Positions 38,152 to 39,920 of a DNA stretch of 64,000 nucleotides are shown in pieces (position 1 is the stretch's first letter; each line of letters starts with the position of its first letter). The position numbers and the translations under genes are program-made. Source of the DNA: Gracilaria domingensis (taxonomy: Eukaryota > Rhodophyta > Florideophyceae > Gracilariales > Gracilariaceae). The notes beneath the pieces were generated by a model, which saw only the letters and a list, made by a program, of their open reading frames with translations, had not been told where the DNA came from and did no database searches. Location: the NCBI GenBank assembly GCA_022539475.1, contig VCMS01000066.1:186001-250000 (forward strand), in the 5' to 3' direction.

Positions 38152-38757
38152 ATGGATCGTGTAGACGGTGAAGCAAATCGTCGTCGATCGCGGCAGAAGT
38201 CTTTGCCGCGGCGTATGGAAGCAGCAAGAAGTGGCGGACCTGCGGCAACAGGGAGCAGCGCACCTGCGCCAACAGGAAGTAGCGCACCTGCGCCAACAAG
38301 AAGTAGCGCACCTGCGGCAACAGGAAGTAGCGCCCCCGCGGCAACAGGAAGTAGCTTACCTGGACCATCACCTCTTGAAGTGCAGCGTGTTCGCCGCAGA
38401 GGCACACGCGCCATCATGGAGATTCGGAAGTATCAAAGAAGCGTGAACTTGCTCATAAAGCCTCTCCCGTTCTCTCGACTCGTGAAAGAGATAACGCAGA
38501 AATACCATCACGCTCTGAGGTACGTCTGGTCCACTACATTTGCGCTTTCGTTCGCATTCCAAAGGCGATGGACTATGTTTACTGCTAACACCGTTCGTCC
38601 TTCTTGCTACCGTTTATAAAGACGGCGCAAAGAAGCTTTAGAGGCGCTCCAAGTATCCGCCGAAGCATACATGGTCCTGCTAATGGAGAAGGCGAACTTG
38701 TGTGCGATTCACGCCAAGAGGGTGACCCTCACACCCCGAGATATCCACCTCGTATGA
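38152..38757 (+). CDS. Centromeric histone H3 variant (CenH3/CENP-A-like), 167 aa, one intron
   Basis: Exons 38152-38519 and 38622-38757; the 102-bp intron (GTACGT donor, TGCTAAC branch, AAAG acceptor) joins the frames exactly. The histone fold is clear: [20 protein letters not shown] and LVKEI (alpha-N, alpha-1), [11 protein letters not shown] (alpha-2), then [20 protein letters not shown] (alpha-3). Loop 1 is one residue longer than in canonical H3, the canonical tail is absent, and the tail instead carries a 24-bp minisatellite coding [12 protein letters not shown] repeats (38245-38357). These are CenH3 hallmarks. It ends early after DIHLV. Role: defines centromeric nucleosomes. The 3' end overlaps the convergent PHD-Mis18-like gene by 49 bp. 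Confidence 0.88.
38245..38357 (+). repeat. 24-bp minisatellite in the CenH3 N-terminal tail
   Basis: About five tandem units of the type GCAACAGGAAGTAGCGCACC plus four bases, each coding eight residues (GSSAPAPT or GSSAPAAT). It is in frame, so copy-number change alters tail length without breaking the gene. Confidence 0.85.
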
Positions 38758-39920
38758 CGAGTCCGAGGCATCGAAACTGATCCGGCCAGCCAATTATGAT
38801 GTCCACGGTTCACGAGAGAGAGATTTTTGCTCGCCGTAGTCGCTCCCATCATCGCATATGTCACCCTACTGGGCTCAAGTTTACACTTTCGTTTCAGGTG
38901 CTCGAAGTTTGCAGCGTTGGCAACGTATACGTTTCCAAGATCCAGCTGGCACTTCGGGCAGCTCACAGATCGCAACGAGCAGCCAAAATCAAAAGCACTC
39001 CGGGAGATCTCCGTTGGCCCGTAAATTTTGAGATCGACGCCAGAACCTGAACGGAATAAACCATAATTGCCATCAACCGCGCAGAGATTCTTATCATTTC
39101 CCAGAATGCTCTTGTATCCAAAGCATTTGATTTCATATTGATAACTGAAAGAGCAGTTCTCGAACACCAGTCCCGCGACTCGTTCATCATTCTTGAAACT
39201 GTGTGGAGAGCTTGTGGATGAATTATCATATTCTCCAATTCCAGACGGCGCGAATTTCTTCTCAAAAGGAGCGTGATCATTGCAAAAGGGGACGAAGCAT
39301 TGTTCCAGTGAAAGTCCTCCTTCGGCGCTGATGCATTCGTAGTGAAGCACGCGGGCGCATCCATCAGCGCTGCAGTGTATCGTAGCGCCGCCTTGCGAAC
39401 AGTACGAGCATACATTATGACGGCGAGGATACGAACCGTACAAGCTCAAAACAGCTCCTGTTCGCAGGTTGATAACAACTTCAGGAGCCCAAGATCCACA
39501 TTCAAAATGAACATAGAGGCATCGCACACCTCGTTTATCAGCGAAAGAACCCATGAGAGTGTCTGTTGTCAATTTAGGTCCCACAATATTCGTGGGACAG
39601 AAGCAGCATTCAGCTGTGGACCCAGTCAAGGGATACGGGCCTTTCCATATATTCTCTACAGTGGCCGTGAACGACAGCCAGTTTCCCATTCTCCACTCAC
39701 GACACATGAAAAGCGGCGCTTTGGCTTCATATGTTGACCAACTCATTTCACGACGTGAACGGAATGGGCCAGGAGATGCCCACCATCCATCCCCTACCGG
39801 GACCTTGCGAAATGGAATCCACCACTCCGGACGATTCTCGGGTTTCCAGGATGCTTTTGAATGACCCTGAGACTCGCGGACGACAGTCTCTAGCTCTCGA
39901 AATAAATCTTTCGCAGCCAT
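38709..39920 (-). CDS. Extended-PHD protein with Mis18/Yippee-like C-terminal domain, 403 aa
   Basis: The ATG at 39920 opens an uninterrupted frame. Residues 104-216 form an extended PHD: CCFC then [16 protein letters not shown] (pre-PHD zinc knuckle), [22 protein letters not shown] and CNDH, a histone-reading module. Residues about 257-360 match the Mis18/Yippee fold: [13 protein letters not shown] (like C-x2-C-x2-ILGDS, but the second Cys is Tyr), then [13 protein letters not shown] and VTYAMMG (like C-x2-C-x3-LG-x2-Y and Y-x-LG). Mis18 proteins help load CENP-A. The neighbour is CenH3, convergent, overlapping by 49 bp. The last about 40 residues overlap it and may be shortened by an unseen intron. 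PHD call firm; Mis18-like call by motif only. Confidence 0.78.

Follow-up and report, generated by a model that had tools for sequence, protein, structure and literature searches.

The window analyzed here is a stretch of 64,000 nucleotides that forms part of contig C66 of the 77.9-Mb Gracilaria domingensis genome. It contains two convergent genes in a tail-to-tail arrangement, a CenH3-like histone H3 gene at positions 38152-38757 of the plus strand and a gene for a protein of 403 residues at positions 39920-38709 of the minus strand. A first-pass annotation of this DNA had reported that the two open reading frames overlap by 49 bp, and the comparison of both frames confirmed this overlap at 38709..38757. 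It grows to 91 bp if the CenH3 frame is read as far as its ancestral stop, and it falls in the C-terminal tail of the minus-strand frame, a segment of about 41 residues past the Pfam match that has no homology support. Both genes are second copies, an intact CenH3 gene being located on contig C4 and a canonical Mis18 gene on contig C58.

A CenH3 Paralogue With an In-Frame Stop

The first exon of the CenH3 paralogue (38152..38519, plus strand), delimited by translation, alignment to the C4 CenH3 and a Pfam Histone match, encodes the N-terminal tail, helices αN and α1 and the start of loop 1. It is followed by a GT..AG intron of 102 bp (38520..38621), whose splice sites were predicted from homology and whose acceptor is preceded by a CTAAC stretch, and by a second exon (38622..38757, plus strand) that could be aligned up to an in-frame TGA codon, the last residue corresponding to H3 position 127. 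The predicted product has 167 residues, matches the Pfam Histone family (PF00125) with an E-value of 1.2e-29 and is identical to the canonical H3 of the same genome at 48 of 84 positions. The two exons, the intron and the Pfam match thus confirm the earlier proposal of a spliced H3 variant.

The N-terminal tail is divergent, lacks the ARTKQTARKS motif and has been replaced relative to the tails of the C4 CenH3 and of the Gracilariopsis chorda protein P0003. It carries 24-bp tandem repeats at 38222..38365 (plus strand; direct-repeat family D2) that encode GSSAPA.. repeats and gave four matches in a pattern scan where none were expected, which bears out the description of a divergent and repeat-bearing tail. 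The claim that loop 1 is lengthened was refuted: from GT(R/V)A to position 127 the window copy has 84 residues, exactly as many as the C4 CenH3 and canonical H3. No insertion in loop 1 was found in the G. chorda protein or in the four environmental proteins of the same clade either, and a lengthened loop 1 therefore does not define the CenH3 of this lineage. The tryptophan of loop 1, which is kept in the C4 CenH3, P0003 and the four environmental proteins, is an arginine in the window copy.

The in-frame TGA (38755-38757) sits inside helix α3 and removes the end of this helix together with the C-terminal tail, so that both are incomplete. In H3 numbering, the window product keeps C110 and L126 and lacks R128 to G132, including I130. 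Homology runs on for 13 codons past the TGA (alignable frame 38758..38799, plus strand) to an ancestral stop at 38797-38799, the same relative stop as in the C4 gene; the 13 residues read from this frame end where the C4 gene ends, and seven of them are identical to the end of the C4 CenH3. The TGA is the only stop, it lies near the 3' end, and the fold contains no frameshift. The base directly after it is a C, and a TGA followed by C is a leaky stop context. The TGA may represent an assembly error, a polymorphism or plain pseudogenization. Because of this codon, the gene was classified as a truncated CenH3 paralogue and not as a working CenH3.

This locus is represented in the public databases by P0002 (140 aa, "histone H3-like centromeric protein A"), a gene model with another splice acceptor, by which the second half of the histone fold is lost. 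The public CENP-A of G. domingensis is accordingly a model of the truncated paralogue in which this half is missing.

The Conserved CenH3 and the Origin of the Window Copy

When the window protein was searched against the genome, eight matches came back. Two of them were the window exons themselves, five were canonical H3 loci and the last was a divergent H3 on C4; a family scan of the genome gave at least 17 histone matches. The divergent H3, here called C4 CenH3 (L018, L033), is encoded at C4:462874-462314 on the minus strand by an intact gene without intron, has 186 aa and is 74.9% identical to P0003 of G. chorda, which is publicly named histone H3. In local alignments, the window copy is 53.2% identical to the C4 CenH3 and 51.5% identical to P0003. 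Although a strong match would be expected, the C4 CenH3 was absent among the matches listed (120 of 145 proteins), and its gene is therefore probably unannotated in the public proteins.

A tree was calculated from 18 histone folds, comprising the window copy, the C4 CenH3, one canonical H3 of the genome and 15 sequences picked by hand from the 120 listed matches. The window copy, the C4 CenH3, P0003 and the four environmental proteins formed a clade of seven with a support of 100/99. Within it most of the branching is poorly supported, and the program cautions that long rows like the window copy are difficult to position. Support is only 89/87 for the split that unites the clade with two fish CENP-A proteins and sets it apart from canonical H3, and the fungal protein P0018, named H3-like centromeric by one source, fell on the other side of it. 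The terminal branches measure 0.58 for the window copy, 0.018 for the C4 CenH3 and 0.045 for P0003; the window CenH3 has evolved about 30-fold faster than the C4 CenH3. Among the 98 fold positions, C4 CenH3 and P0003 differ at eight, and at these the window copy agrees with C4 CenH3 three times, with P0003 once and with neither four times. Two of the three residues shared with C4 CenH3, V15 and K34, look derived in comparison with the four environmental proteins, which suggests, weakly in view of the few sites, that the duplication postdates the split from Gracilariopsis.

Selection on the Window CenH3

Comparison of the window copy with the C4 CenH3 over 97 fold codons by NG86 gave a dN of 0.22 and a dS of 2.34. 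Since dS is saturated, simulations were used in which the window branch evolved neutrally and the C4 branch by synonymous changes only, with third-position divergence matched (4 x 400 runs). The mean identity in these neutral runs was 0.33-0.38 and the maximum 0.57, whereas the observed value is 0.714 (70 of 98 fold codons). As the observed identity to the C4 CenH3 lies above the maximum of all neutral runs, purifying selection has acted on the window paralogue for much of its history. The stop count by itself is no argument against decay, since at most one stop was found in a fraction of 0.13-0.24 of the runs with the window branch neutral and of 0.33 of the runs of an earlier simulation with neutral change along the whole path; the argument is carried by residue identity. 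Past the TGA, 7 of 13 residues match the C4 CenH3, compared with 63 of 84 before it (Fisher P 0.18) and with 0.35 under neutrality (P 0.13). These 13 codons are neither significantly above the neutral level nor significantly below the upstream conservation and thus do not date the stop.

The Minus-Strand Gene Encodes an N-Terminal Domain and an Extended PHD

The minus-strand open reading frame extends from 39956 to 38709, and the 403-aa protein starts at the ATG at 39920 (gene 38709..39920, minus strand; open reading frame, Pfam and public protein P0001). Given how often stops occur locally, a frame of 415 codons has a chance of about 9e-7 per start; the G+C content by codon position is flat (0.51, 0.50, and 0.49) and gives no coding support. 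The protein combines an N-terminal "RPEWW" domain, an extended PHD (ePHD) and a Mis18-type domain and is referred to below as the fusion protein.

The N-terminal domain (residues 4-76; 39693..39911, minus strand) was recognized by its likeness to the N-termini of two proteins, the Ulp1/C48-type protease L014 (contig C291; PF02902, E 1.5e-15) and the basic protein L015 (contig C37). It matched no Pfam family and no PDB sequence. An NRF1-like identity was considered for this domain and dropped when a PDB profile search returned no matches at E-values up to 10.

The ePHD (residues 105-216; 39273..39608, minus strand) is above the cut-off for PF13771/PF13832, with a PF13771 score of 32.6 bits against a cut-off of 29.1 (E 9.3e-8), and the extended PHD that had been read in the convergent gene is confirmed by this match. 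Its Cys and His positions show the HC5HC2H zinc-binding pattern, with C105/C108/H138/C141 and C171/C174/C183/C188/H193/C196/C213/H216 as candidate ligands. When the window protein alone was used in a PDB search, the proteins matched by the ePHD were KMT2D, PHF6, and PHF7.

The public protein P0001 (521 aa, "PHD-like zinc-binding protein") is the fusion protein with an N-terminal extension, and its public name and precomputed domains do not mention Mis18. The extension was set aside, as its first part lies in a duplicated stretch of 280 bp and the alignment with L015 starts near the ATG at 39920; its frame is open in both copies of the duplication, so that the extension is possible. A protein search with the fusion at E-values up to 10, for which shared words of five residues were needed, yielded only the fusion itself from 1747 candidates. 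The database searched includes the Mis18 proteins of Agarophyton chilense and G. chorda. The search depends on annotation, and among the matches listed for the histone (120 of 145) there was no A. chilense CenH3, so that the A. chilense set may be incomplete.

The C-Terminal Domain Is Probably of the Mis18 Type

The Mis18-type domain covers residues 263-362 (38835..39134, minus strand) and was assigned by Pfam, genome scan, profile alignment, shuffles and Smith-Waterman comparison, with weak fold support. The Pfam Yippee-Mis18 match (residues 301-362, E 4.8e-5) has 23.9 bits and lies under the cut-off of 26.6, and the same place reached 27.0 bits, just over the cut-off, in the genome scan. Three Yippee-Mis18 matches were found in the genome, namely the canonical Mis18 on C58 (80.8 bits), a Yippee-like protein on C5 (37.5 bits) and the window gene (27.0 bits).

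A search with the C58 protein returned eight proteins including itself (one from A. chilense, one from G. chorda and five environmental ones), all of which were combined into a red-algal Mis18 profile. This profile was collinear with 76 columns of the window domain in hhalign, with a probability of 92.9% and an E-value of 3.8e-7. The score of 51.1 was higher than that of any of 300 shuffled domains, which peaked at 24.6 in 150 shuffles and at 36.9 in a further 150 with Cys and Gly fixed, and among the 903 open reading frames of at least 40 residues in the window the profile matched the fusion alone. Smith-Waterman z-scores were 8.9-13.2 to all eight Mis18 proteins and 0.4 in the one comparison with the C5 protein (L010), which we take by its pattern to be a Yippee rather than a Mis18 protein. 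Because the latter value is at noise level, a Yippee identity of the domain was rejected. BLASTP of the domain against P0122, the G. domingensis Mis18, alone gave no usable match (best E 0.015, out of register).

The first CxxC of the window domain is degraded to CFGY, and the second, CPKC, is kept. Because the first Cys pair is degraded, we call the domain Mis18-like and not Mis18. The Pfam match is followed by about 41 residues in the fusion compared with about 210 in P0122, whose C-terminal part gave weak coiled-coil-type matches below the cut-off.

A profile of the eight Mis18 rows and the window domain found the S. pombe Mis18 structure 5HJ0 at 2.6e-20, a value for which the canonical rows are dominant. 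The search of the PDB with the window protein alone reached Mis18-alpha with an E-value of 0.074 over residues 283-349, and this was the only β-tent protein among 11 chains. Structure models were of low confidence, with a pLDDT of 41.2 with relatives and 31.5 without them, and do not serve here as principal evidence. The top seven Foldseek matches of the pLDDT 41.2 model, which was built on Mis18 rows, were all Mis18 chains, the best with an E-value of 4e-3 and none below 1e-3. Taken together, the sequence comparisons argue that the C-terminal domain, borderline by Pfam, is of the Mis18 type, an assignment that is now well supported. The Mis18/Yippee pattern noticed in the first-pass annotation passed the profile test as Mis18, with no match to the Yippee-like protein tested. 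Family searches for SANTA, Scm3 and CENP-C gave no match in the genome, and the control genomes were likewise without a match over the cut-off, for which reason we do not read the result as a lack of these families.

Genomic Surroundings

Mobile elements are abundant in the window. Matches to reverse transcriptase, integrase, protease and gag, some of them below the cut-off, lie at 1.8-6.4 kb and 20.7-23.3 kb. A DDE_1 transposase occupies two adjoining open frames at 44575-46494 on the minus strand, the second with a match below the cut-off; the ePHD-Mis18 gene lies about 4.7 kb away, and we presume the transposase to be of pogo/CENP-B kinship. An open reading frame of 1384 aa for a DEAD-box helicase (Pfam) is found at 57682-61836 on the minus strand. 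By eye it has a zinc-finger-like N-terminus, an OrsD-type open reading frame lies nearby at 55303-56007 on the plus strand, and the combination is reminiscent of fungal helicase genes that are mobile or subtelomeric.

Besides the match to the C4 CenH3, a genome search with positions 37000-41000 returned a 280-bp repeat, a stretch of 360 bp also present on C25 and C63, and a short stretch on C7. The 280-bp sequence is a direct duplication (40015-40294 and 30469-30748) with 12 differences, i.e., 96% identity, and the genome search reported no further copy. The fragment at 40349-40709 is 77-81% identical to the copies on C25 and C63 (L027, L028). Its translation resembles, in our estimation, the N-terminus of importin-beta/transportin, and a piece of 73 aa gave no Pfam match.

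With two CenH3 loci, two Mis18-domain loci and an assumed total of 7,000-12,000 genes, an adjacency of the two kinds would arise by chance with a probability of about 0.0007-0.0011, a question that was posed after the fact. A report on four related Gracilaria genomes gives 6,807-9,460 genes (PMC10388701). The argument from adjacency is weakened by the duplicated fragments that occur around the locus.

Discussion

The first-pass annotation was mostly right, including its boldest part, a Mis18-type domain behind an ePHD. Both genes are real. Its view of the locus as a two-gene centromere-identity module is partly supported; that this is the module of the organism is not supported, since the conserved CenH3 lies on C4, the canonical Mis18 lies on C58, and the window CenH3 is fast-evolving and truncated. 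We tentatively propose, with confidence approaching an even balance, that the locus holds two neighboring accessory copies of centromere-identity genes that possibly modulate CenH3 loading. Most likely it represents either an accessory, lineage-restricted pair of centromere proteins or a paralogue that is decaying beside a neofunctionalized Mis18-domain gene. A functional link between the two neighbors is the least certain step of this proposal.

An ePHD is usually a chromatin reader. Together with the N-terminal domain, it could tether the fusion protein to chromatin, where the Mis18-type domain might pair or compete with the canonical Mis18 and thereby alter CenH3 loading. A study of known Mis18 proteins states that their Yippee-like domains dimerize and that oligomerization is needed for centromere localization (PMC4818781). 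The truncated CenH3 should bind H4 and a chaperone, as most of its fold is kept, and would be expected to form tetramers poorly, as I130 of the H3-H3' interface and the C-terminal tail are lost. According to two reports, H3.3 L126A-I130A binds DAXX and H4, yet is not incorporated (PMC5662737), and H3 C110E L126A I130A is a constitutive dimer (PMC5404915); these mutants change L126 as well as I130, whereas the window CenH3 keeps L126. The truncated protein may modulate the C4 CenH3 while itself being poorly deposited, or it may be a once-working paralogue that is now being lost. We consider it distinctly unlikely that the two products act as one linked modulator, in which a truncated CenH3 that binds H4 and the chaperone, yet cannot be stably deposited, and a private ePHD-Mis18 reader competing with Mis18 would tune or antagonize centromere loading. 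Such a modulator might serve one seaweed lineage as a regulator of particular life stages or as a selfish element in centromere drive.

The proposal of two accessory copies has to be weighed against the view that the genes are coincidental neighbors, a formerly useful CenH3 paralogue that is now a young pseudogene and an unrelated general-chromatin gene with an ePHD and a Mis18 domain. The TGA in helix α3 and the roughly 30-fold faster branch agree with this view, as does the fact that the best ePHD matches are the general chromatin proteins KMT2D, PHF6, and PHF7 and that the word-based protein search detected no homologue of the fusion. The adjacency itself may be accidental, given the transposon-rich surroundings with other duplicated fragments. 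However, the single stop lies near the 3' end with no frameshift in the fold, the C4 residue is retained by 70 of 98 fold codons where neutrality allows at most 57%, the intron is spliceable and the chance of such an adjacency is low. Coincidence is a serious possibility all the same, although we lean against it. It is unlikely that the CenH3 is full-length in life, by read-through or because the TGA is an assembly error or confined to one allele, and that it thus constitutes a second CenH3 with its own Mis18-like loader, perhaps stage-specific. The seven matches in 13 residues past the TGA, a frame that ends exactly at the ancestral stop and the leaky context provided by the following C would fit this idea, but the 13 codons are not significantly above neutral expectation, nor are they significantly below upstream conservation.

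As to the C-terminal domain, another β-tent zinc domain (Yippee or cereblon-like) that resembles Mis18 by convergence would be compatible with the Pfam score under the cut-off, which the genome scan raised just above it, with the low-confidence models and with Foldseek E-values that stay above 1e-3. We regard it as very unlikely, since the domain matched eight of eight Mis18 proteins and not the one Yippee-like protein tested, exceeded all shuffles and found Mis18-alpha as the sole β-tent chain among 11, and since the leading Foldseek matches were Mis18 chains, if from a model built on Mis18 rows.

If the pair of accessory copies is functional, it would offer a natural experiment on what a second histone together with another Mis18-like factor can change in the loading of CenH3, and the centromeres of this lineage have, to our knowledge, received little description. 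Should the case prove ordinary, the locus still corrects the record: P0002 is a model of the truncated paralogue, the C4 CenH3 is absent among the matches listed (120 of 145), and Mis18 is not mentioned for the fusion.

Comparison With Known Systems

In a limited literature search, mostly below the level of full texts, we met no linked duplicates of a CenH3 and a Mis18-domain gene and no paper on Mis18 together with the kinetochore in red algae. Duplicates of centromere-identity factors have precedents in other eukaryotes. The Cid paralogues of Drosophila are CenH3 duplicates. KNL2 duplications in plants are described in a published study (PMC9210943).

The fusion shares its ePHD, by sequence match and PF13771, with KMT2D, PHF6, and PHF7, and we know of no Mis18 domain in any of these three. 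Its C-terminal domain is collinear with S. pombe Mis18 (5HJ0), human Mis18-alpha (7SFZ) and G. domingensis P0122, with which it has the GC[ST].....C..C....G..Y core and the second CxxC in common; unlike these proteins, it carries CFGY in place of the first CxxC and is placed behind an ePHD near the C-terminus. The window CenH3 shares with the red-algal CenH3 proteins P0003 and C4 the histone fold, a stretch of 13 residues, the clade and the relative end of the frame. It differs from them in its faster evolution, the repeat-bearing N-terminal tail, the change of tryptophan to arginine in loop 1, the in-frame TGA, and the 102-bp intron, where the C4 gene has no intron in the fold.
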